From a virus, in the IMG/VR virus record IMGVR_UViG_3300037840_000441, positions 1 to 25,643 of that record: a stretch of 25,643 bases of DNA; one strand, given 5' to 3'. The translations under genes were made by a program, and so were the position numbers. The notes below the pieces were generated by a model, which was not told the origin of the DNA, ran no database searches, and was given only the letters and a program-made list of their open reading frames with translations. This document shows, piece after piece, positions 7,073 through 23,659 of this stretch (its first letter is position 1; each line of letters opens with the position of its first letter).

Positions 7073-8065
7073 TCAGTTGGTGTTGGCGATGACGACCGAG
7101 AAGTCGGTGATGAGCCCGAGGCCCCAGATGGCGTACCAGGCCAGCGCATGCTCACGACCGAAGTCGAGAACGCCACCGTCACGCAGCTCGACGGGCAGCG
7201 AGATCGCATGACCGAAGGCGTTGTCGCCGATGAAGATCGACTGGTAGTAGTTCGCCGGGGTGGCCGCTGTGTTGAGCGCCTGGTTGACCTGTGTGGTCTC
7301 GATGAACACGGTGTCATAGAGACGACCGATTTCGCCGAGAGCGAAGTTTCCGGGCGCCGCATACTTGGTCACCTCGATGAACTCGGGGGTGTCCCTGAGT
7401 CGCCGGGACTGCGCCGGGGCGAGGAAGCATACGTAGGTCTCACCGAGCCGGGGCACATTCTTCGACGCCAGGGTCAGGACGGCGTCCTTGACCAGTGGCG
7501 GAGTGAAGTAGTACGTCCCGGTAAGGCCGTTCGTCGACGTGGCGGCGGTGCCGATGTCGTACGGCGACTGCGTCGACCGCGGGGTGAGGGTGGCGACCTG
7601 GCTGTAGCCGAAGATGACCGAGCTGGCCAGCAGCAAGGTGTTCCTCGCCGAGAAGTCGAGGAACTGGGCCATGTTACGGCCGAGAAGACGAGAGGCCGAG
7701 GCCATGACGTCATCGAAGGAAGCGTTGAGCAGAAGCTCGGTCACCGACACGGCGAAACCTTGCTCGGCCACCGTGATCGAGAACTGGCTGGCGGTCAGCG
7801 CCACCGTCTGGAGGCGCACACCTTCAACGAGCTGACTGGCATTCGGCAGGTTGTTGTACCGCATGAAGTTGATGGTGAGCCCGGGTTGCACACCCAGCTC
7901 GGTCTTCTTCACGGCGAACTGCTCGAACCGCAGAATCGGCATGGCCTGGAAAAGGATCTCCTTCGACCAGATGGTCTGGATTGCCTGTCCCAGCGTGTTG
8001 TTGGCGCCGGAGTAGCCGGTGGGTGAAGCGGCCAAATATGGGGTACCCGTGACTGCACTGGGCAT
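7073..8065 (-). CDS. Major capsid protein, N4-gp56 family
   Basis: This 330-residue protein forms the icosahedral shell. It carries the features of the N4-gp56 type of HK97-fold capsid protein. These are an early 'IQTIWSKEILFQAMPILRFEQF' segment, 'TINFMRYNNLP', 'VTVAEQGFAVSVTELLL', and a diagnostic C-terminus 'LPVELRDGGVLDFGREHALAWYAIWG' followed by 'GLITDFSVVI'. The start is ATG at 8065 behind a very strong ribosome binding site (AGGAGGAGA), as expected for the most abundant virion protein. It follows the scaffold gene across a 133-bp gap. Confidence 0.95.
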   Translation of the reverse strand: MPSAVTGTPYLAASPTGYSGANNTLGQAIQTIWSKEILFQAMPILRFEQFAVKKTELGVQPGLTINFMRYNNLPNASQLVEGVRLQTVALTASQFSITVAEQGFAVSVTELLLNASFDDVMASASRLLGRNMAQFLDFSARNTLLLASSVIFGYSQVATLTPRSTQSPYDIGTAATSTNGLTGTYYFTPPLVKDAVLTLASKNVPRLGETYVCFLAPAQSRRLRDTPEFIEVTKYAAPGNFALGEIGRLYDTVFIETTQVNQALNTAATPANYYQSIFIGDNAFGHAISLPVELRDGGVLDFGREHALAWYAIWGLGLITDFSVVIANTN

Positions 8066-8198
8066 GATTAAGTCTCCTCCTAATCGAGAGTTGGGAAGCC
8101 TTCAAATGCCCGGCTCTGGCAGCCACAAAATGCTGGTTTCTACTTCAAATCCCGACCACATCAAATCAGCCACAGATACTGCAAACAAGTCACATTAC

Positions 8199-8984
8199 TC
8201 AGGGCGCATACAGACCTTGCTCCTTTACCCGCTGGCTTCCGGCCCCGAGGAGCTGCTGGCGGTATTGCTGATACTCGGCCATGTCCATGTTGGCGATTTC
8301 AGCGGCCGTAAATGTGCGCGTGTTATCCTGACCCTGACCGGTCATGTCGACCGGTGGTGCACCTGACACCGGTGGGGCGAGCTGACGCCGATTGTTGACC
8401 CCGGCCTGCTGCACCTCTGCCACGATCTCGGCCGTTTTGGCTTTGACCATCTCGATCCGCTGATCGATCTGTTCTTTGGTGGCGCCCTCGACGAACTCGA
8501 CAAACTGAGGAGCGATGTTGTCGTTCTCTTCCTGCAACCGCTGATAGCGGTAGCCGCTGATCTCGGCGAACTCCTGCTCCTTCTGGCGGAGCGCACGCTC
8601 CTGATCCCGATCGGCTTGCATCTGGGCGAACCGCTCTTCCCAGGATTGAGAGGTCTGGGCCAGCTGCTCCTGCAGTGACATCGCCTCTTCTTGGCGCTTG
8701 CGCTCTTCCTCTTCGGCGGCGGCCTTAGCCTCTTCCTCCAGCCGGAGACGCTCTTCGCGCTCTTCGCTCAGTGTCTTGAGTTGCGCCTTCTGTTCTTCGA
8801 TTTGCGGATAGAGCTTGTCCTTCTCCTCCTGACGCACACGCTCACGCTCGGCATTGATCATTTCCTCGACCGTTTTGCGATCGAGTTTGTCATCGGCCGC
8901 CGGAGGGGTTTGCTGCGGAGGGACGTTCACCACAATCGGCTGCGGCTGCGGTGGGTTTTGGTAAATACCTTGATCCATGGTCAT
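8199..8984 (-). CDS. Capsid scaffold protein
   Basis: This 261-residue protein sits between portal and major capsid genes, the usual place for a scaffold. It has a Pro/Gln-rich N-terminus and then a long charged coiled coil (residues about 35-165, with many E, R, K and Q). The C-terminal part 'FTAAEIANMDMAEYQQYRQQLLG' is a typical end for phage scaffolds that contacts the capsid protein. The start at ATG 8984 has AAGGAG eight bases upstream. An upstream in-frame ATG at 9053 has no ribosome binding site, so the 23 extra residues are unlikely. The scaffold would be lost from the mature head. Confidence 0.88.
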   Translation of the reverse strand: MTMDQGIYQNPPQPQPIVVNVPPQQTPPAADDKLDRKTVEEMINAERERVRQEEKDKLYPQIEEQKAQLKTLSEEREERLRLEEEAKAAAEEEERKRQEEAMSLQEQLAQTSQSWEERFAQMQADRDQERALRQKEQEFAEISGYRYQRLQEENDNIAPQFVEFVEGATKEQIDQRIEMVKAKTAEIVAEVQQAGVNNRRQLAPPVSGAPPVDMTGQGQDNTRTFTAAEIANMDMAEYQQYRQQLLGAGSQRVKEQGLYAP

Positions 8985-9095
8985 TTCAGATTCTCCTTGA
9001 CCTTCGGTTTCTACAGAACGGGGCACAATACGACGTTTTACAGTTACAACCATTCAGTCGACATTAAGACGCCCGACTCCCCATCAGGAAGTCAC

Positions 9096-10691
9096 TTAAT
9101 CGTCGGGGCCCTTCAGAGGATTTCGAAGCTGGGGAATCTTGGTCCCGGCCGCCAGGGTGTTCATTTGCTCCAGGAGCTTCTGGGCGTCGGGATCATTACC
9201 GATCCCGGGGAGTGCTCCCTGGCCCGCTCCGGCCGGGGTGACACCGGGGCCACCGGCGGATGGCACACCACCAGGCTTCTCCTGGCCGCCCTCCTCCTCA
9301 GCTCCCTCCATCGGGACGCCGGTCAGCATGGAAATCAGCACCTTGATCTGGGTATTCAACAGATCGAGGGCACCCTGTTCGAGGGCGTCCTGGTGCAGCT
9401 CGTTGAGCAGCTCTTCAAGCTTCTCAGCCGGATAGGCCTCACCCAGCTTCTTGAGGGCGCCGCGCTTGGATTCGAGCCCGATGGCCATCTCGGCCTGGAT
9501 CTCATTGAGGGCCACCAGCTTGTCGAGGGGCAGCGGGGAGGCAAAGGCCACCGTATTCCGGTAGGTGAGTGGATCGGCCGGATCGAGCACCTCGAACTGG
9601 CCCTCTTCGAGCGGGGCGTCCCGGGTCGGGTCCAACTCCAGCAGCTCGGGCATGTAGAGAACAGCCGTGCGGATGATCAGCTCGTTGAGCTGTCCAAAGC
9701 CCGCTTGGTACTGGGTGATTTTCTGATGGAACTTCTGCATGAGCGGAAGGAACTGCAATGACAGTGCCACCCCTGAGGTGTTGCTGATCTCCTGCGGCTG
9801 GCCGAGGGCGTTGACCGGGATGCCGACGATCTCGTGCATTTTGTCCTTGAGCATTTGCAGCCATGCCAACGGGCCCTCCAGCTGCGCACCCAGCTCCAGG
9901 TTCATGATCTTGGCTTTGTCATTTGGAATGGCCCAAACCTTCTTCGGGCCGCGTTCGAGGTTGTTCGCCTTGGCGCCGAGGATGATCGTGGTCGGGCTGA
10001 CGATGTCACTGATCAGTGCAGCGGTCTCGTTGTACTGCCGGTTGAGATCGGTGATGTCCTGGATGTCGGAGAGCCCCCATGGGCTAGACGGCACCTTGGT
10101 GTTCGAGATGTGCACGAACGGGATCATCCCGAGCGGGTTCTCCTGGCTCTCCACCAGCTCGTCGTTGATAAACGCCTGCATGGCGTCCTCGGTCCACAGC
10201 TCGGTGAAGGAGAAGACCTGCCGGGTACCTTCGAGAGCCGTTCCCCAGAACCGGTATTTCATCTTGAACCGGATCATGCGGGTCATGTCGTGCGGGTGAT
10301 ACTCGGGGAAGCAGAAGGCCGAGTTGAGCGGCAGGATGCGGATCTTGGCCGGATGCATATTTCCGGCCGGGTCATCGAAGGCATCTTCGTAGGCCACCTT
10401 GAGGAAGCAGTCACCCGACACCGAGCCCTGCTGCATGGCCTCCCACATCACCGCTTCTTTGCCCATCGGCTGGTGCTCTTCCCACACCGTACGGAGCAGC
10501 TCGGGCACGATGGCCTCGGTGGCGTGCGGACTCTGAAAGTTCACGCCATTGGTCAAAGCGAAGTTGGTCATGAAATCAGAGAAGGCCTTCGTCCAGTTGA
10601 AGACCGGTTGCGGCTCACCGATTTCCCGCTTGTAGCTCCAGTGGTGACCGAGATAGAAGGCCCAGTTCGATGCATAGCTGGGGTAATCGAT
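9096..10691 (-). CDS. Portal protein, main reading frame (5' end shifted out of frame)
   Basis: This frame encodes most of an SPP1-gp6-type portal, the dodecameric ring through which DNA enters and leaves the head. The first ATG in this frame is at 10571, giving 491 residues. However, strongly portal-like sequence continues upstream without a start (YPSYASNWAFYLGHHW, then YKREIGEPQPVFNWTKAFSDF) as far as a TGA at 10694-10692. The missing N-terminus is in another frame at 10693-10824. A single extra base between 10680 and 10686 explains the break, and the joined protein would be about 575 residues. Conserved segments include 'QQGSVSGDCFLKVAYE', 'WGLSDIQDITDLNRQYNE' and 'NALGQPQEISNTSGVAL'. The scaffold follows 111 bp downstream. 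Confidence 0.9.
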   Translation of the reverse strand: MDYPSYASNWAFYLGHHWSYKREIGEPQPVFNWTKAFSDFMTNFALTNGVNFQSPHATEAIVPELLRTVWEEHQPMGKEAVMWEAMQQGSVSGDCFLKVAYEDAFDDPAGNMHPAKIRILPLNSAFCFPEYHPHDMTRMIRFKMKYRFWGTALEGTRQVFSFTELWTEDAMQAFINDELVESQENPLGMIPFVHISNTKVPSSPWGLSDIQDITDLNRQYNETAALISDIVSPTTIILGAKANNLERGPKKVWAIPNDKAKIMNLELGAQLEGPLAWLQMLKDKMHEIVGIPVNALGQPQEISNTSGVALSLQFLPLMQKFHQKITQYQAGFGQLNELIIRTAVLYMPELLELDPTRDAPLEEGQFEVLDPADPLTYRNTVAFASPLPLDKLVALNEIQAEMAIGLESKRGALKKLGEAYPAEKLEELLNELHQDALEQGALDLLNTQIKVLISMLTGVPMEGAEEEGGQEKPGGVPSAGGPGVTPAGAGQGALPGIGNDPDAQKLLEQMNTLAAGTKIPQLRNPLKGPDD

Positions 10692-10824
10692 TCAGCCTGG
10701 GTCCATGGACCTCAAACTCTTCATCTGCGAGTTCGACCAGACCCAACGGGCTGATAGCGATCGTAAGATCGGACGATGCGGCGCGATAGCTGGGGCTGAC
10801 AAAGCTGATAGCGATTTCAATCAC
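10615..10824 (-). CDS. Portal protein N-terminal fragment before the frameshift
   Basis: Only the first 46 or so codons are meaningful. The segment 'SPLGLVELADEEFEVHGPRLNR' is the expected beginning of the portal, and after the frame break the same frame reads nonsense to a stop at 10615. The start given is GTG at 10824. A near-perfect ribosome binding site, GGAGGTGATT, overlaps this GTG, so the true start could be a little downstream, but no ATG is available in frame. The start overlaps the last 8 bases of the HNH gene, which suggests translational coupling. Whether this is a sequencing error, a real mutation or programmed frameshifting cannot be decided here. Confidence 0.7.
   Translation of the reverse strand: MIEIAISFVSPSYRAASSDLTIAISPLGLVELADEEFEVHGPRLNRLPQLCIELGLLSRSPLELQAGNR
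10750..10815. repeat. 12-bp direct repeat pair spaced 54 bp
   Basis: GCTGATAGCGAT occurs at 10804-10815 and again at 10750-10761 on the plus strand, within the portal N-terminal coding segment. The spacing is 54 bp, exactly 18 codons, so an in-frame insertion or duplication of 18 residues is possible. Collapsing the repeat would leave an open start segment that reads straight into 'SPLGLVELADEEFE'. Confidence 0.6.
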
Positions 10825-11308
10825 CTCCCTCTACAAACTCGCCGGTCTGACCGGCGAGATAGGCGATGGCCCGAGCCAACGTCTCAACATTCTCCTGAAA
10901 ATAACCAAGACCTTGGTTGCAGGGACTACAGAGTAGGCCTCTCACAACACCAGTTACATGGTCATGGTCAACATGAAAATGATCGCTTCGCTGTCGAGGG
11001 TTGTCTGTTCGGCAGATGGCACATTTGCCGTCTTGTTCCTTCAACAGCCGGAGGTAATCACCGTGAGTAATCCCGTATTTCGAGAATAGTTTCTGCTCTC
11101 GCTCGTACTCTCGCTGGTGTGGTATCTCATTGCGCCGACGAAGAACCCTCAACCGATTGCCGTCGAACCGCCTGCATTCCCACGAGCAGTACACGCGATC
11201 ATCGAACCGAGCCCACCACGCTTCTTGGATTTCAACCGCACAAGAAGGACGGTCACAGCGTTTCCCGGGCTCGGCTACCCGGCCTTGGGCGTAGTGTCGC
11301 TGAGTCAC
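10817..11308 (-). CDS. HNH endonuclease, recombination endonuclease VII type
   Basis: This 163-residue nuclease has two metal-binding parts. The first is a Cys pair set at C18, C23, C41 and C45. The second is an endonuclease VII-type beta-beta-alpha-metal core: C96-x2-C99, then 'HVDHDHVTGVVRGLLC' with C127, C130 and N131. Family members cut branched or nicked DNA during phage packaging or act as mobile HNH genes. GTG at 11308, four bases past the preceding stop, is chosen; the open frame upstream to 11443 lies inside the 122-residue gene. Its 3' end provides the ribosome binding site of the portal gene and overlaps its GTG. A packaging-linked role is plausible given the portal neighbour. Confidence 0.85.
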   Translation of the reverse strand: MTQRHYAQGRVAEPGKRCDRPSCAVEIQEAWWARFDDRVYCSWECRRFDGNRLRVLRRRNEIPHQREYEREQKLFSKYGITHGDYLRLLKEQDGKCAICRTDNPRQRSDHFHVDHDHVTGVVRGLLCSPCNQGLGYFQENVETLARAIAYLAGQTGEFVEGGD

Positions 11309-15375: not shown

Positions 15376-16059
15376 TCACCTAAGTTCGCTGACGATTTGC
15401 TGCATCATCTGCGGGTTTGCGTACGCTTCCCGGTACCGATTGCACAGCCTTCGGTTGTCCATGAAATGAGGCTGATCGAAGCACTCCTCTTCGGGATGGA
15501 GATGCCAAAGGTGGTAGAGCGGCCCTGGTACCCGGGCGATCTGCTCGACCAAGGTGTGGAGCGACATCTGGAAGGCCCGATCCTCTTCGCCCCAGCCGAT
15601 GAAACGCTCGTCATAGCCGCCGACCGTCTCGAAGGCCTTGCGCGACACCACGATGCACCCACCAACCGCCGGTTCGGGGTATTCCTCTGATGGAAAGATG
15701 TACTCACAGAGCAACCCAGACCGAACGCCTCGGCGAAACACCACTGAGGATCCTTCTGTCAGTGAGTTGTAGGAGTCATAGGGAAATACCCATTGCCGTT
15801 CACCATCTTCCACCATGCTGATGGCCGTTTTAAGCTGCGGCATCGGAACGTAGGAATCGGCATCAACGAAAACGAGCGTGTCGCTTCGAGCCGCCATGGC
15901 CGCCATGTTGCGAGCCACCGACCGATTGAACTCCCCGCCGTTGGTCAGGGTGATGACTTCGTCGTCGGGAAAACTGTGGGCCAAGTGTTGATGAATATAA
16001 TCGAGTGACTCCACCCGGTGCGGTTCATCGGATCGGAACGGAATCAGGAACGAGATCAC
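15376..16059 (-). CDS. Glycosyltransferase, GT2/GT7C-type
   Basis: This 227-residue enzyme has a GT-A fold and transfers a sugar from a nucleotide-sugar donor. Seen in sequence are an N-terminal 'ISFLIPFRSDEPHR', a donor segment 'NGGEFNRSVARNMAA', and the metal-binding 'VFVDADSYVP'. The acceptor-side motif 'GGCIVVSRKAFETVGGYDERFIGWGEEDRAF' is typical of the galactosyltransferase C-terminal domain. GTG at 16059 is chosen because it overlaps the upstream stop (GTGA) and follows AAAGGGG; an in-frame GTG at 16080 is the alternative. It is the last of four glycosyltransferase genes. Confidence 0.88.
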   Translation of the reverse strand: MISFLIPFRSDEPHRVESLDYIHQHLAHSFPDDEVITLTNGGEFNRSVARNMAAMAARSDTLVFVDADSYVPMPQLKTAISMVEDGERQWVFPYDSYNSLTEGSSVVFRRGVRSGLLCEYIFPSEEYPEPAVGGCIVVSRKAFETVGGYDERFIGWGEEDRAFQMSLHTLVEQIARVPGPLYHLWHLHPEEECFDQPHFMDNRRLCNRYREAYANPQMMQQIVSELR

Positions 16060-16670
16060 AGCAGCCCCTTTGCGTGCCACTCCATTTGATATTCGGACTG
16101 GATTTGCGAGTAAACCTGAGAGTGTAGGCCAATGTCCTGATTCCTGCTCTCGGAACGGACGTGCACCCGATAGACAGCTTCAGGACAAGTGCTGAGCTGA
16201 GCCCCGTGCAGTCGGAGCCGGATCCAAAGATCCCAGTCTTCGAGCACCGGCAGATTGCGGAACCCACCCACCTCGTAAAAGAGGTCCCGCCGGATCATGG
16301 TGCCGATGACCAAATGGTTGCCGACCATGAAGCCGCCCTGATGCGGCGGAATGAGGACCGGGTAATCATCCTCCCGCCCGTCGACCACCCCGAGCGTCGA
16401 GGGCTGGCGCAAATCGCCCTCCCCCTTTAGCATGAACTCGATATACCGGGGATCCAGCTCGTCGTCGGCGTCAAGGAAGATCAGCCAGTCGGCCATGGCC
16501 TCACCGGCGCCGACATTACGGGCGTGGGAGAGATCGCTGCTCCCGTGGCTGCGCAGAATGGTCTCAGGCCGGACAGTCTGATTCTCCGCTGAGGCTACGG
16601 CCCGCTCGGCCAAATCATCCCACAGCTCCTGATTGCCGTAGGTCGCTACAACAACGTCGACGGTGTCCAT
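16056..16670 (-). CDS. Glycosyltransferase family 2
   Basis: This 204-residue GT-A enzyme begins 'MDTVDVVVATYGN'. It carries 'SHARNVGAGEAMADWLIFLDADDELDP', in which the DADD is the metal and nucleotide-sugar binding motif. It also has 'EVGGFRNLPVLEDWDLWIRL', where the ED of 'LEDWDLW' is the usual catalytic-base region. ATG at 16670 is preferred over a TTG at 16700 because it begins right at the first beta strand. The start overlaps the end of the previous glycosyltransferase by about 25 bases in another frame, and the end overlaps the next by four bases. Confidence 0.88.
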   Translation of the reverse strand: MDTVDVVVATYGNQELWDDLAERAVASAENQTVRPETILRSHGSSDLSHARNVGAGEAMADWLIFLDADDELDPRYIEFMLKGEGDLRQPSTLGVVDGREDDYPVLIPPHQGGFMVGNHLVIGTMIRRDLFYEVGGFRNLPVLEDWDLWIRLRLHGAQLSTCPEAVYRVHVRSESRNQDIGLHSQVYSQIQSEYQMEWHAKGLL

Positions 16671-17413
16671 GTGCTTCGCATCGTCGACCTGTACGGCCAA
16701 GGAGATCTGACCAGTTGTTTGTCATCGGCCAGGATCGATTCCACATGGGCGCTCGAATGCCCGAGCCTGAACCGGTACCGCTCGTATTTGAGCAGCTGGT
16801 CTTTGAGGTCGGCGTAGCCGTAATGCAGGATGGCCACGGTGTCGGTCTGATACCAAGGGCCGCCCATCACGTAGTTGGGGACGGCAGGCGCTCCGACCTC
16901 GCCCTGGACATACTGTCCATTCGGCCGGAAGGCAAAGAGCCGGGGGGCGTGGATGGTACCCCACAGCCGATCGGTACGGATTAACGGACAGCCGTCCTCA
17001 TCGAAGCCGAAGACCTCGGGAATGTCGAGGTTGACTGCCACATGGGACCCGGCGGCGTGAATGACCTTCTCCAGCGAGTCCCGAACGTCGGCTGGGTGGG
17101 CACTATGCCAGCACACCAGCAGCTCGTCGCAGTCGATGACCAGGATCCAGTCTCCCGGACGCGGGGCCATATGGTTCTGGAAGGCATCCCAGGCACCGCC
17201 CCGGAACATTCCCTCGTCCTCGGCAAAGCTCGGGATGAAATCAGCCCTGATCTCGCCGGAGCAGTTCAAATCGTGGGCGATCTCGGGGGTTTCGTCAGTC
17301 GAACGGTCGTCGTAGAAGAAGAGATCGTCGAGGATATCGAGGTGGTGCTCCAGCATCGGAATGAGGTAACGGCTGGCCTCATTCCGCCCGACGGTGAGCC
17401 CAAAGATCCTCAT
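16646..17413 (-). CDS. Glycosyltransferase, GT2/GT92-like
   Basis: This 255-residue enzyme is of the type that starts 'IFGLTVGRNEASRYLIPMLEH'. It has the motif 'FFYDDRSTDETPEIAHDL' and a metal-binding 'WILVIDCDELLV', followed by 'WGTIHAPRLFAF'. This is a subgroup of family 2-like transferases often found in phage and polysaccharide loci. The ATG at 17413 overlaps the upstream stop as ATGA. Its final 20 residues (SPWPYRSTMRSTWTPSTLL) are encoded in the overlap with the next gene and may be non-functional tail. Confidence 0.87.
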   Translation of the reverse strand: MRIFGLTVGRNEASRYLIPMLEHHLDILDDLFFYDDRSTDETPEIAHDLNCSGEIRADFIPSFAEDEGMFRGGAWDAFQNHMAPRPGDWILVIDCDELLVCWHSAHPADVRDSLEKVIHAAGSHVAVNLDIPEVFGFDEDGCPLIRTDRLWGTIHAPRLFAFRPNGQYVQGEVGAPAVPNYVMGGPWYQTDTVAILHYGYADLKDQLLKYERYRFRLGHSSAHVESILADDKQLVRSPWPYRSTMRSTWTPSTLL

Positions 17414-18180
17414 TCACACAAAATGCCATGGGCGGCGCAGGCTTGTCGATGCATCTGCTGGGAGACGGCGAACTGCTGATCGGCCCAACCACCGTGGGGG
17501 CTGGCGGCATGCCAGTAGTGGGTCATCTTCACCGGCCCGTAATAGACGCATTTAAAGCCATGGGCCCGAGCATGTAGGGAACAGAACATCTCATCGAAGT
17601 AATGCGGCGTCTCCAGAAAGGCGCCTACTGCCCCCGGGCTCGCCTGCTGGTACATCACGCAGCTGGTCAGCTTCTGCCAGAGCGCCCGTTTGATGAAATA
17701 GAGCGAGCCGGACACCGAGAGGGCGTCTTCGAGAATGTCGGAGTACTGCCCTTGGTCGTGCTCATTCCAACCCCGCTGGCGCGGAGACTGGTCCGGGCCC
17801 ACGATGCCCCCGGCCGTGATTTGATTCTGCGCATTCACCTGCCGGGGACCGAGCACACCCCAGTCCTCGTTGTAGCGGAGGGCGTCGTAGCACTCGGTGA
17901 AGCCGCCGCTGAGCACCGTATCCGCATTAGCCAAGAGAATGACATCGTTCTTTCCTTCAAACGCCCCAATGTTGCACGCCCGCCCGTACCCGCAGTTCTC
18001 TTTGATTGGAATATAGGTATCACCCAGAACTGGATAAGTATCACCCAGAGCTGGGTCGGGGGGATCGACGTCCACCACCGTGAGCGTGCAGCCGAGAAAC
18101 TTCACCTCGTCATATGACTTGGCGAAATCGAGCAACAGTTGAGGCGTCTTATAGCTGACCACCACCACGTCAACGGCCAT
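17410..18180 (-). CDS. Glycosyltransferase family 2, rhamnosyltransferase-like
   Basis: This 256-residue enzyme shows the pattern 'DVVVVSYKTPQLLLDF', then 'CGYGRACNIGAFE' and 'VILLANADTVL', typical of WbbL/rhamnosyltransferase-like family 2 enzymes. Acceptor-side motifs 'GSLYFIKRALWQKL' and 'HYFDEMFCSLHARAHGFKCVYYG' follow. A 7-residue tandem duplication, LGDTYPV/LGDTYIP, encoded by a 21-bp repeat, lies near residues 46-59 in the donor half. The ATG at 18180 overlaps the upstream stop as TGATG. It is the first of four consecutive glycosyltransferase genes. Confidence 0.88.
   Translation of the reverse strand: MAVDVVVVSYKTPQLLLDFAKSYDEVKFLGCTLTVVDVDPPDPALGDTYPVLGDTYIPIKENCGYGRACNIGAFEGKNDVILLANADTVLSGGFTECYDALRYNEDWGVLGPRQVNAQNQITAGGIVGPDQSPRQRGWNEHDQGQYSDILEDALSVSGSLYFIKRALWQKLTSCVMYQQASPGAVGAFLETPHYFDEMFCSLHARAHGFKCVYYGPVKMTHYWHAASPHGGWADQQFAVSQQMHRQACAAHGILCE
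18017..18058. repeat. 21-bp imperfect tandem duplication
   Basis: Two adjacent 21-bp units (18017-18037 and 18038-18058, each beginning GTATCACCCAGA on the plus strand) duplicate seven codons in the glycosyltransferase at 17410-18180. They are nearly identical in their first 17 bases, so the duplication looks recent. Confidence 0.7.
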
Positions 18181-18754: not shown

Positions 18755-19756
18755 TCACGTGATGTGTCCGCCGATGGACTCCACCCAGGCGATGATTTTA
18801 TCTGCCTCGGCTCGGATCCTGTCAACTTCTTCCTGAGCCATCTCCTCCAGCCGCTGGATCCAGCCCGGAGAGGGCGTCGGTGTGGGCGGAGGAGGTCCCG
18901 GCGGCGGAGGAGCGGGTGGGACTGGAAGAGGCGTAGGCTGCGGCTGTGGCGGCGGCGCAGGCTCGGGCTGCGGTGCGGGAGCCGAGTCGCCGCCACCGAT
19001 GGCCTGCAGGTCAGCCAGAAGCTGGGGCTCGAACTTGGCCAGCTGCGCTTCGGTGGTGATGATCAGGTAGGCCTCACCGTTCGGGTTCTGCACCAAGCAC
19101 TGCGTAATCCAATCATTGGTGGCGTCTTGGAACTTGCCCCACGTGCCAACTTTGTGCGGGCCACTGGCTGTCGCCATGTAGTTCCAAATGACGCAGTGGC
19201 CGTCCTGGGGGTCAGGCTGCAGTCCGGCCGGATCGAAGGGCTGGCCGTTGTTGAACTGCGTCTCGTTGTTGTCGGTCAGATTGACGCCGATGTAGAGACC
19301 AAATCCCTCGCCCATCAGTGAGGCGCACACCGACACGTTGGTGTGATCGACCGGACACCAGGCCTTGATGAATCCTTGCTGGAAACACCAGTGCAGATAA
19401 TCGGGAAGATTTACCCCCGGCCCGGGAGGAGGCTGATTACCGTCATAGGCGTTGTACCGATCGACAGCGAGAGTGCTGTCCGGCAATGGCCCCGGCACTT
19501 GGGCCGCCACCGCCTGCACCATTTCCTCATGCACCTCACCGCATGCTCCGCAGTTTCCATACTGGTCGTTCCCCATCATGCCCAGATTGATCAAGCCTTC
19601 AGTGACATCGACCGGGAAGACGGCAGGCCTCGGGCCGCCGAGCATGTATTCGTGCGCCCATTTGAGTGGGTACCGTTCATCCGGCGGTTTGACGGGAAGG
19701 CGACCACGTAACAGCGTCGGCGGCGGGAACTGCTCGGGGTTCAGGACGTCAGTCAT
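18755..19756 (-). CDS. Papain-like cysteine protein with Pro-rich tail
   Basis: This 333-residue protein matches a family of phage and bacterial papain-like proteins in its first 250 residues. 'NDQYGNCGACGEVHEEM' carries the candidate nucleophile (C69, possibly C72). 'DGHCVIWNY' carries H187, and 'VGTWGKF' at 203-209 is the third element. 'GFGLYIGVNLTD' fits the same fold. A long Pro-rich linker (about residues 259-297) and a short charged C-terminal helix follow. It may be a protease or amidase, or a catalytically altered binding protein. No signal peptide is seen. ATG at 19756 is chosen because of the TGATG overlap with the KTSC gene and the GAGGAAGG site; a GTG at 19765 is the alternative. 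Confidence 0.72.
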   Translation of the reverse strand: MTDVLNPEQFPPPTLLRGRLPVKPPDERYPLKWAHEYMLGGPRPAVFPVDVTEGLINLGMMGNDQYGNCGACGEVHEEMVQAVAAQVPGPLPDSTLAVDRYNAYDGNQPPPGPGVNLPDYLHWCFQQGFIKAWCPVDHTNVSVCASLMGEGFGLYIGVNLTDNNETQFNNGQPFDPAGLQPDPQDGHCVIWNYMATASGPHKVGTWGKFQDATNDWITQCLVQNPNGEAYLIITTEAQLAKFEPQLLADLQAIGGGDSAPAPQPEPAPPPQPQPTPLPVPPAPPPPGPPPPTPTPSPGWIQRLEEMAQEEVDRIRAEADKIIAWVESIGGHIT

Positions 19757-20091
19757 CAGTCCCACCTTCCTCTGTGGTAATCGAACTGGTTGAGCACCCG
19801 ATTGACGAACTTGCCGGGCGATTGGCTTCGCTTCAGATTGGCCCAGATATTCGGCGGCACACCTTCATAGGTCCACGGGGTACCGGTGCCATGTGGCTTC
19901 ACAAAGCGGACGTAGAGCCGACTCGAATCGGGATCGTAGGCCGCCTCCTCGATGCGTGAGGAATCGAAGACGTACCAGTTCGAGGGAACCTCGTCGTCCT
20001 CGATCGGTGATGCCGACGTCAGAGAAGCCGGATTACTAGCGATTTGCGTCTCGGGGATCTGATTGATCGACGGCGGCCGACGGTTGGGCAC
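19756..20091 (-). CDS. KTSC-domain protein, 111 aa
   Basis: The C-terminal part (residues about 44-107) is a KTSC-type domain. It reads 'SSRIEEAAYDPDSSRLYVRFV', then 'WTYEGVPPNIWANLKRSQSPGKFVNRVL'. This small domain occurs at the ends of lysyl-tRNA synthetases and alone in many phages, possibly binding RNA or protein. The first 40 residues are low-complexity and probably disordered. The start is GTG at 20091 with GGAGGAG 9-10 bases upstream; no ATG is nearby. It overlaps the next gene as TGATG. Confidence 0.83.
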   Translation of the reverse strand: MPNRRPPSINQIPETQIASNPASLTSASPIEDDEVPSNWYVFDSSRIEEAAYDPDSSRLYVRFVKPHGTGTPWTYEGVPPNIWANLKRSQSPGKFVNRVLNQFDYHRGRWD

Positions 20092-20176: not shown

Positions 20177-20590
20177 CTAAAGGATGGATTTGCCGGATGC
20201 CTGGCGGCCGAGAGCTACCGCACCCAACACGAGCGCACCGGCGAGCACGATGCCCTCGTTGCGATTGGACTTGAGGTGCGCTTCGACGGCGAGCACGTCC
20301 TGCAGACTCGGATCGAATCCCTCTCGGCGCAGCTGCAGTTCGATCTCCTGCACGGAGGGAATGCGCTTGGTTGCCACCTTGAGGGCCCGATCGGTCGTCC
20401 AGAGGAAGCCGCAGAACAGGACGAGCATCCAGAAGCCGACCACACCGCCGAGGAGGTAGGTCCCGGCGTAGTTGACGGTCTTGGAGGCAGGATCAGCCGT
20501 GGCGAACTCGATAAGCCCGGCAGCGCCACAGGCCAGACTGGCCACGACGGCGGTGATCCAGAACCACTCTCTCCAGCTGATCTTTTCCAT
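20177..20590 (-). CDS. Small membrane protein (holin candidate)
   Basis: This 137-residue protein has two clear membrane segments (about residues 9-29, WFWITAVVASLACGAAGLIEF, and 44-66, YLLGGVVGFWMLVLFCGFLW) and a third, shorter hydrophobic C-terminal stretch (GIVLAGALVLGAVALG, about 113-128). A charged helical part lies between (TKRIPSVQEIELQLRREGF). The size, topology and place among late genes make a holin or lysis-linked role possible. However, the lysin-like gene is about 6 kb away, so this is inference. ATG at 20590 has only a weak ribosome binding site. Confidence 0.72.
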   Translation of the reverse strand: MEKISWREWFWITAVVASLACGAAGLIEFATADPASKTVNYAGTYLLGGVVGFWMLVLFCGFLWTTDRALKVATKRIPSVQEIELQLRREGFDPSLQDVLAVEAHLKSNRNEGIVLAGALVLGAVALGRQASGKSIL

Positions 20591-20654: not shown

Positions 20655-22493
20655 CTAGAGTCCGAAGGCGGATTTGATATCAGCCGCCCCGACGGCGTTG
20701 TTCTGCAGCGGCACACCGGCGTTCTCTTCCAGCCAGCGGGTCAAGCCGTAGTGGGTGTAGATGCCGGTAACCACCTTGCCGGACAGGCCTTTGTGGACCA
20801 CGGTGAAGGCCACATTGTTTCCGGCGCTGGAGTCATCCTCATCGGTGACGATGATGATGGTGAGACGGCCCGAGGTGTAATCCGGCCCGGCCTGGAGGTT
20901 CGGGATCCAGGTCTGCAGGAAGGCATTTGCTTGGGCCGCCGTCCCGTCGTGCCAGTCGTTCTGGAGGTTCGGCGTGATCTCGCCGGTCACCGGAAGGGTC
21001 CCGGCCGTGATGTCGCCCTGGAGTGCCGTCAGGGGGACGTCGTTGGCATTGCAGTTGGCCCGGCTGGTGGCGTTCGTCCAGTAGGCCCACGGCCCGTGCC
21101 GAGGCGCATAGTTGCCGGAGCCGCTCGGGTCGCAGTTGGACGGCATCGACTCCTGGTAGGCCTTGGCTGATTTCCCGGCGGCCAGGGTCTGATCCCACAC
21201 GCTTCGGTCACCGCTCGCCGTCGGCCCACAGCCCACCCCGCAGTCGGAGGAAGTGCCGTAGTTGGTCCCGCCAAAGATTTCCAGATAGTTGGGCAAGCTC
21301 GGGTGCCCGATGGCGAAATAACTGGTGGCCTTTCCGTAGGTGTTCGCCAAAGTGTTGAGGTACGGCATTTGGGCGTAGGACTCGGCTTGGGAGTGATTCT
21401 CCTCCATGATCACCATCACTTTGGACCCCGTCGACGGCATGGTGGTCGAGGTACTGGTCGATGTGGAGGTGGACGTTGACGTCGACGTCGAGGTGCTGGT
21501 CGACGTCGAGGTGCTCGTGCTCGTCGAGGAGGAAGTCGTGGTGGTGCTCGTCGTTGTCCCCGGCGGCGGGATGATGTTGTGCATGGCGTCGACGTACTGA
21601 CCAAACCCCGAGGAACTCGACCACCCGCACGAGGTGACCGGCGTCTGGTTCTGACCGCCGCCCGGGACCACGCATCCAGCGGTGCTCTCAACCTGTGTTC
21701 CCTCCCCATATTCATCCCAGGTCGTGATTAGCTGTAAGGGCTCGTTGCTGTTGACCATCGCCTGGAGGTTCGAATCCCAAGCGCTCACGCTGCGGGCGAG
21801 CCGAGGCGACGTCTCGTTAGCCTTCCAGTAGCCGGGGGAGGCGGTGAAGCTGAAGCCCGGCTGATGGTCGGTGGCGACGGCCGGGCCGTACTGGTGCCAG
21901 CCGTTCGGTTGGTCGGCACAGGACTTGTAGCCCGCAAAGACACGAAGCGTCAGATAGAAGCCCTCCGAAGCATTGGCCTGGGCCCAACGGGTGGCATCGG
22001 CACAGGAGCTGTCGTTGTAGACGTAGATGGTCGGTTTGTTGTCCACCCACAGGTACCGGGTGCTGGTGGTGTACTTCGATTTGATGTAGGCCAGGTCCGA
22101 AGCGATCGAAGCCTCATTGGTCGAGGGTTGCTCATAGTAGATCGACCATTTGAAGCCGGTGTCCGCCGCCCCGTTGAGGAGAGCGGGCATGACCGAGTCC
22201 TCCTGGGAGCCCTGGCCCCACCAGGAGACGAAAGCGGCATTCAAGTGGCCGTACTGCATGGCCGCTATCTGCTGTTTGATGATGGCCGGGTCGTTCGAGC
22301 TGTAATACCCGGCCGTGGGAGTGTAGTGACTGAACGGATTCAACGATTGTTGGTTCCAGGCGTTCGGATACCAGGGGTAAAAAACGGCAGCCCTAATCGG
22401 CGGGGTGGTATTTCCCCCCGGAACACACATAGCGGCAGTAGCGCCGAGGAGAAGCAATGGGGCCAAGACCAAAACAGCACGTCTGAGAACCAT
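20655..22493 (-). CDS. Secreted GH99/GH71-like domain fused to phosphoesterase domain
   Basis: This 612-residue protein has an N-terminal signal peptide (RR, then AVLVLAPLLLLGATA). Residues about 33-305 form a GH99/GH71-like TIM barrel: 'AAVFYPWYPNAW', 'AFVSWWGQGSQEDS', 'YLWVDNKPTIYVYN' and 'LITTWDEYGEGTQVES', the last holding likely catalytic Glu residues. A Ser-Thr repeat linker spans about 312-352. Residues 356-612 form a phosphoesterase domain of the acid phosphatase/phospholipase C type. Its motifs are 'MEENHSQ', 'GHPSLPNYLEIFGG' (candidate nucleophile Ser), 'ITPNLQNDWHDGT', 'VTDEDD' and 'HYGLTRWLEENAG'. All expected motifs are present. The likely substrates are host surface or environmental glycans and phosphate esters. 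No good ribosome binding site precedes ATG 22493. Confidence 0.85.
   Translation of the reverse strand: MVLRRAVLVLAPLLLLGATAAMCVPGGNTTPPIRAAVFYPWYPNAWNQQSLNPFSHYTPTAGYYSSNDPAIIKQQIAAMQYGHLNAAFVSWWGQGSQEDSVMPALLNGAADTGFKWSIYYEQPSTNEASIASDLAYIKSKYTTSTRYLWVDNKPTIYVYNDSSCADATRWAQANASEGFYLTLRVFAGYKSCADQPNGWHQYGPAVATDHQPGFSFTASPGYWKANETSPRLARSVSAWDSNLQAMVNSNEPLQLITTWDEYGEGTQVESTAGCVVPGGGQNQTPVTSCGWSSSSGFGQYVDAMHNIIPPPGTTTSTTTTSSSTSTSTSTSTSTSTSTSTSTSTSTSTSTTMPSTGSKVMVIMEENHSQAESYAQMPYLNTLANTYGKATSYFAIGHPSLPNYLEIFGGTNYGTSSDCGVGCGPTASGDRSVWDQTLAAGKSAKAYQESMPSNCDPSGSGNYAPRHGPWAYWTNATSRANCNANDVPLTALQGDITAGTLPVTGEITPNLQNDWHDGTAAQANAFLQTWIPNLQAGPDYTSGRLTIIIVTDEDDSSAGNNVAFTVVHKGLSGKVVTGIYTHYGLTRWLEENAGVPLQNNAVGAADIKSAFGL
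21438..21557 (-). repeat. Ser-Thr dipeptide repeat linker coding region
   Basis: About 120 bp encode an alternating Ser-Thr linker of roughly 40 residues joining the two domains of the secreted enzyme. Codons vary, so the repeat is maintained at protein level. On the other strand it reads as a Val/Asp/Glu-rich frame that is not a gene. Such linkers are typical O-glycosylation sites in secreted actinobacterial enzymes. Confidence 0.85.
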
Positions 22494-23383: not shown

Positions 23384-23659
23384 TCAGCCGCCACGAAGAG
23401 CAGGGGCCAGGATCAGTTTCTCGGCGGCGGGGTCGAAAGAACGGATTACCTCGTCTTTGGATCCGTTGCGCTTGACCGAAAACGCTTGATAGCCCTTGGC
23501 CTTCAGCTCGTCGAAGGTCCGTTCGGCCGAAGCCACCTCTTCGGGCTTGTCGGGATCCCAGACGATGCGGGTGTCGCCGGAGGCGTCGAGACAAACCAGG
23601 ACACCTTTACCCGCTTCGAAATCATCCTTGTCGGCTTCCTTGGCCAGGCTGATGGTCAT
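23384..23659 (-). CDS. Conserved small phage protein, 91 aa
   Basis: This 91-residue protein is of a type seen repeatedly beside the gene that follows it here. The pattern is 'GVLVCLDASGDTRIVWDPDKPEEVASAERTFDELKAKGYQAFSV', then 'GSKDEVIRSFDPAAEKLILAPALRGG'. No function is known. It has a good ribosome binding site (GAAAGGAAA) about 7 bases before ATG 23659. Two candidate promoters lie upstream, so it may head the long leftward transcript that carries the structural genes. Confidence 0.8.
   Translation of the reverse strand: MTISLAKEADKDDFEAGKGVLVCLDASGDTRIVWDPDKPEEVASAERTFDELKAKGYQAFSVKRNGSKDEVIRSFDPAAEKLILAPALRGG

Follow-up and report, generated by a model that had tools for sequence, protein, structure and literature searches.

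An exported GH99-like glycosidase–phosphoesterase fusion in a soil phage, and its recurrence in other viruses and in bacteria

Introduction

GH99 endo-α-1,2-mannosidases and mannanases such as BtGH99, BxGH99 and human MANEA carry their catalytic pair within an EW[H/G]E motif, and by the W/Y189 rule those with tryptophan at position 189 favor mannose in the −2 subsite (PMC11025385). In GH71 enzymes the first dyad acid is aspartate, and a C-terminal β-sandwich is present (PMC12394665). Bacteroides degrades yeast mannan that bears phosphate by combining a GH99 endo-mannanase with phosphatases (PMC10154615). Infection of Streptomyces coelicolor by phiC31 requires polyprenol-phosphate-mannose-dependent glycosylation (PMC5882110), a precedent for mannosylated receptors.

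Glycoside hydrolases have been reported as auxiliary genes of soil viruses (PMC6460857). The gene described here is likewise a phage-borne carbohydrate-active enzyme gene, but couples the glycosidase to a phosphoesterase. In the open-access literature, of which our coverage was incomplete, we found no phage pairing of GH99 with a phosphoesterase described. For a vinegar virome, GH99 appears only as a table entry, and we rejected a mangrove-virus “GH99” as a precedent, as the paper labels it glucose-6-phosphate isomerase. Both domain families are known; their joining is undescribed in the open-access literature searched.

Results

We analyzed a window of 25,643 nucleotides that comprises the entire IMG/VR record IMGVR_UViG_3300037840_000441. 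A sequence-only reading had reported a 612-residue open reading frame in it, and the frame has exactly the bounds given there (Table 1); it lies on the minus strand, which that reading left out. The plus strand over the same positions contains stops in this frame and is not open, and the ATG at 22493 is the only in-frame start codon. The encoded protein, P0001, consists of an export signal, a GH99-like barrel, a Ser/Thr linker and a PF04185 phosphoesterase. The predicted export signal agrees with hydropathy: residues 6–24 are the sole hydrophobic segment, with only residues 1–27 exceeding a 19-residue mean of 1.6, and no lipobox was seen by eye in the signal region. The linker has 41 residues, 22 of them threonine and 17 serine.

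The reported two-domain fusion with its Ser-Thr linker held up, both Pfam profiles scoring above cut-off (PF16317, GH99, 55.3 bits against 33; PF04185, 52.5 bits against 23) and both AlphaFold2 models being confident. Judged from sequence, the fusion is not a chance joining, because the complete arrangement is found again, at 58% identity, in a second phage contig (L075). The protein belongs to no PHROGs family, an NCBIfam search returned only low-complexity noise from the linker, and fold matches in BFVD were all weak and multidomain.

Table 1. Features of the window and forms of the GH99-like gene in viruses (PE, phosphoesterase)
Feature	Position	Strand	Basis or remark
Head module: portal, scaffold, major capsid protein	7073..10571	-	Homology; the contig's phage anchor
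Four GT2-type glycosyltransferase genes	15376..18180	-	Syntenic with G039, 44-62%
KTSC-domain gene	19756..20091	-	Syntenic with G039, 61%
137-aa membrane protein, downstream of fusion gene	20177..20590	-	Weakly like gene at G039 counterpart position: 36% over 59 aa, E 8e-6
CDS, exported GH99-like + phosphoesterase fusion (P0001)	20655..22493	-	ORF and Pfam profiles
Residues 1-22, probable Sec signal peptide (MVLRR, hydrophobic core, ATAA)	22428..22493	-	Judged by eye
GH99-like (β/α)8 barrel, residues 24-311	21561..22424	-	PF16317, AlphaFold2 model, PDB fold matches
E121, counterpart of BtGH99 E154	22131..22133	-	PDB alignment
E261-Y-G-E264, counterpart of BtGH99 catalytic pair E329/E332	21702..21713	-	PDB alignment
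Ser/Thr linker, residues 312-352	21438..21560	-	Sequence composition
PF04185-type phosphoesterase, residues 353-612	20658..21437	-	Pfam, AlphaFold2 model, fold matches
E365-N366, EN motif, putative metal ligands	21396..21401	-	Conservation of 90% or more across 26 relatives
HPSLPNY, residues 397-403, S399 putative nucleophile	21285..21305	-	P398, S399, Y403 invariant in 26 relatives; role by analogy
D551-E552, putative metal/catalytic residues	20838..20843	-	Both invariant in 26 relatives; role by analogy
GH99-PE fusion, viral			Window, G001, L076/L077 group, L109 (PE half of L109 below Pfam threshold, called by local profile, 82 bits)
PE-GH99 fusion (reverse order), viral			L090
Separate neighboring PE and GH99 genes, viral			L095, L098
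GH99 fused to Metallophos (PF00149), viral			L079, L092, L099, L108, L116
GH99-like without phosphoesterase, viral			L094, archaeal virus APOV1

The model of the N-terminal domain (pLDDT 93.2, built on 47 relatives) finds its best solved folds among the GH99 endo-α-mannosidases (PDB 4ad0 and 4acz, E 9e-17 to 4e-15), with GH71 a distant second (E 6e-9 against 9e-17). The domain had been called “GH99/GH71-like”, of which only the first half stands: we rejected membership in GH71 on that distance, on glutamate rather than the required aspartate at position 261, and on a model that is barrel only. E261 and E264 are invariant among the 47 relatives and E121 is conserved in at least 90%. W92, in an SWWG motif, appears in our own alignment to be the counterpart of the mannose-setting Trp189. 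The phage domain therefore shares with BtGH99, BxGH99 and human MANEA the barrel, equivalents of three acidic residues and a tryptophan at the putative −2 subsite position, but it is shorter, reads EYGE in place of EW[H/G]E, is fused to a phosphoesterase and is viral. Its structural identity to characterized GH99 enzymes is only ~17–19%, so that the sugar and the linkage may differ.

The model of the C-terminal domain (pLDDT 94.1, built on 26 relatives) has a predicted alkaline-phosphatase-superfamily fold, with phospholipase C and AcpA as top PDB folds (E 8e-11). It shares fold and motif set with the nearest solved structures, the PF04185 phospholipases C PLC-N and RePLC, a GPE phosphodiesterase and Francisella AcpA; the EN, HPSxPNY, DE and histidine motifs are all conserved in the 26 relatives, H515 being invariant and H581 kept in most, with a putative metal or catalytic role by analogy. 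Unlike known PF04185 phosphoesterases the phage domain is fused to a glycosidase and is a short form, missing about the first 100 profile positions; short forms annotated “alkaline phosphatase family protein” on Streptomyces and Nostoc plasmids are ~33% identical to it. Structure prediction against GH99, GH71 and PF04185 folds, which the sequence-only reading had proposed as a check, thus matched the first and the last, and its candidate catalytic residues are retained in both domains across the relatives.

The phage origin supposed by the sequence-only reading is supported, and the contig is a soil phage akin to Streptomyces phages. In the major capsid protein it reaches 71% identity to Streptomyces phages LuckySocke, Alone3 and BRock, the last described as a virulent myovirus of 112.5 kb (PMC7453282); further matches to LuckySocke come from portal, scaffold and a gp71 homologue. 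Nearer still is G039 (93% in the capsid), which shares gene order with the window from the capsid gene via the four glycosyltransferases to the KTSC gene. The window's portal gene is split over two frames near 10.69 kb (10618–10830 and 9096–10691, minus strand) and that of G039 is a single frame; the split is probably a sequencing frameshift. A 336-residue protein at 18755–19765 (phrog_19005) looks like a papain/C39-type peptidase, having a GNC..C motif followed later by a histidine; it has a distant relative at the matching place in G039.

In G039 the fusion gene's position is taken by a sugar-nucleotide epimerase (PF01370, with a match to GDP_Man_Dehyd as well), and elsewhere in that region lies a GH39-type glycosidase (glycosidase and epimerase at L200:17948–19078 and L201:1213–2211). 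Glycan-related cargo seems to be exchanged at this site. The fusion gene is absent from LuckySocke-type phages, including BRock, in the phage collection searched, and from 22 related IMG/VR records examined, some of them 100–112 kb long. We therefore rejected the idea that phages of this group carry it as standard and regard it as a lineage-specific accessory gene at a variable glycan-related site, dispensable in view of those 22 records.

The sequence-only reading had also called such a protein unusual in a phage, a view that wider searching did not support. Finding viral relatives required alignment-based queries; a single-sequence scan of viral contigs gave none. A full-length homologue, 58% identical, lies in an 87-kb contig (L075/G001) of an unrelated phage, whose portal, capsid and tape-measure genes are likewise unrelated to those of the window. 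Among 14 virus lineages with a GH99-like gene and readable context, 12 join it to a phosphoesterase, PF04185 in seven and calcineurin-like Metallophos (PF00149) in five (Table 1). In the first three Metallophos records tested the fused domain is the sole PF00149 match in the record. Hallmark phage genes were confirmed in the window, G001, G002, G005, G006 and G010, all six of which carry the pairing, while the viral status of L090, L092, L095, L108, L109 and L116 is the IMG/VR label. We rejected the idea that the viral copies all share one origin with the phage of the window, as the 12 other viral records with relatives, 11 of them with a GH99-like gene, are without its capsid gene, though these fragments may not span that gene.

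Further afield, orf10 of the Betaguttavirus Aeropyrum pernix ovoid virus 1 (APOV1; L002:3085–3939), annotated as a hypothetical protein, shares the GH99-like domain and keeps an NE..E motif, but is only 26% identical and has no phosphoesterase. Viral contig L086 (7848–10538) fuses a PF04185 phosphoesterase to a different glycosidase, GH16, and in L085 (6429–8744) and L087 (6441–8768) PF04185 follows a long N-terminal domain that begins with a membrane segment.

The pairing also occurs in bacteria. Among 66 GTDB host loci, picked by GH99-domain patterns only, 28 have a GH99-like gene with a phosphoesterase, fused in 13 (six PF04185, seven Metallophos) and as neighbors within ~4 kb in 15. PF04185 occurs in 12 loci against ~0.5 expected (Poisson P ~5e-13; 97 copies per 92.7 Mb in 24 of these genomes, scaled to 0.49 Mb of loci) and PF00149 in 22 against ~1.2 (217 copies in the same 24 genomes), figures that overstate independence as the loci are partly related; kinship notwithstanding, the enrichment is large. 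A search of host genomes for the same two-domain order, also proposed earlier, succeeded: fusions L009, L010 and L022, in Friedmanniella, Acidimicrobiales and Chloroflexi MAGs, have the identical domain pair and order, but unlike the phage copy are chromosomal, some with extra linker modules. The bacterial relatives are exported, bear CBM96 modules and have purple acid phosphatases as neighbors. Thirteen host loci adjoin GT2-GtrA/DPMS or PMT-type glycosyltransferases, where ~0.3 are predicted from the density of PF04138 (53 in 92.7 Mb). The DPMS/GtrA and PMT families are typical of polyprenol-phosphate-sugar glycosylation and are not specific to mannose.

On a GH99 tree whose bootstrap is not fully settled, the viral label changes ~8–10 times, fusion to PF04185 8–9 times and fusion to Metallophos 9–10 times, well-supported branches forcing four changes in each case. 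The window and G001 cluster with the Acidimicrobiales MAG fusion L010, their nearest cellular kin, and L076 groups with a Friedmanniella/Propionibacteriaceae pair. From these groupings, viral fusions arose or were acquired more than once, in at least two cases from actinobacteria, and by the sequence phylogeny fusion with a phosphoesterase has been gained repeatedly. The phosphoesterase tree places the window together with G001 and L081; the last is a phage phosphoesterase protein whose gene adjoins that of a terminase.

Discussion

We propose, with about an even chance of being right, that the fusion is a mobile exported enzyme that cuts α-mannosyl-type linkages and hydrolyzes phosphate esters in extracellular phosphorylated glycans. 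In the mechanism that we infer, for activity and substrate as for timing and phage benefit, a horizontally mobile accessory gene would yield a product exported by the host Sec pathway. Its N-terminal domain would cut internal α-mannosyl-type linkages, by analogy with GH99 in a retaining reaction through a 1,2-anhydro intermediate using E261 and E264; its C-terminal domain would hydrolyze the phosphate esters of this type of polymer, and the two activities together would break phosphorylated extracellular glycans from both sides. The likeliest target would be a mannosyl or phosphoglycan coat of the actinobacterial host or its neighbors, and the payoff for the phage may be receptor loss, easier release, or exclusion of rival phages.

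Several observations bear on the substrate. One glycosidase is joined to either of two non-homologous phosphoesterase folds, in phages and bacteria alike, and the best explanation is a shared substrate in which glycosidic bonds occur alongside phosphate esters. The chemistry of GH99 enzymes together with the host gene neighbors points to α-mannosyl glycans, rather than to the teichoic-type substrate first envisaged. We favor attack on surface phosphoglycans, in line with one of two roles offered by the sequence-only reading, because of this shared-substrate pairing and by analogy with Bacteroides mannan degradation and the phiC31 receptor requirement.

The main rival, which we consider rather unlikely and which resembles the other of those two roles, is a nutritional auxiliary gene whose product would digest environmental phosphorylated mannans such as fungal phosphomannan, the infected cell importing mannose oligosaccharides and phosphate for phage replication. 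It fits the Bacteroides precedent, the CBM96 modules and purple-acid-phosphatase neighbors of exported host relatives, the glycoside hydrolases of soil viruses, and the fusion of phage phosphoesterases to other glycosidases, such as GH16 in L086. However, an extracellular product is shared, making a gain within one lytic cycle doubtful; no transporter or uptake gene lies beside the fusion gene; and the host neighborhoods examined hold glycosyltransferases, not uptake systems.

Alternatively, the phosphoesterase may act on a target unconnected with the glycan, the fusion merely sharing an export signal between, for example, a phospholipase C or scavenging phosphatase and a wall-glycan hydrolase. 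PF04185 does include phospholipase C and acid phosphatase, PLC-N and GPE phosphodiesterase are among the top folds, phages L083, L084 and L089 carry free-standing phosphoesterase genes, and the long Ser/Thr linker permits independent action. We nevertheless judge this improbable, as activities that are not jointly useful would hardly account for a recurrent pairing that spans both domain orders and two non-homologous phosphoesterase folds.

That a host gene sits on a chimeric or misclassified contig is barely credible: the gene is missing from close phage relatives and the ~3 kb to its right (22.5–25.6 kb) has nearly no homologues, but gene order is kept with G039 up to the adjacent KTSC and membrane genes, on which ground we rejected the host contamination that the sequence-only reading had named as fatal, GC is even along the window, the gene at 23384–23659 matches phage Rctr197k, and the same fusion stands in an independent phage record (L075/G001).

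Returning to surface-phosphoglycan attack, unrelated phosphoesterase folds swapped onto one glycosidase in phages and hosts are strong genomic evidence for coupled activity, and therefore for a widespread, as yet unnamed phosphorylated extracellular glycan. The recurrent joining suggests a real and so far undescribed attack on phosphate-bearing sugar coats. A broader reading, which we offer as possible though somewhat doubtful, is that phages of soil actinobacteria and of their neighbors repeatedly assemble an exported “phosphoglycan breaker”, a GH99-like domain with one of two unrelated phosphoesterases, that would strip mannosyl/phosphate glycans acting as phage receptors or surface coats, as a phage counterpart of receptor-destroying enzymes. 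The fusion offers a concrete, assayable enzyme for asking what purpose the carbohydrate enzymes exported by phages serve, and which phosphoglycans soil actinobacteria and Chloroflexi carry.

The host loci hold further variants. Among bacterial clusters (L014, L022, L023, L025, L059, L061, L063 and others), those of Chloroflexi contain GH99-like, phosphoesterase, CBM96, DPMS/GtrA and PMT-type genes, and those of Micromonospora contain DPMS/GtrA and PMT genes without a phosphoesterase; together they possibly represent an undescribed system of extracellular glycosylation and processing. A Streptomyces plasmid protein (L003:1792–3804) combines an N-terminal sigma-70 region and a GH99-like domain on the outer side with what is probably a membrane segment, and is perhaps a glycan-reading membrane sensor. 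Comparably long upstream parts occur at the Streptacidiphilus and Catenulispora loci L037, L044, L048, L049, L053 and L057.
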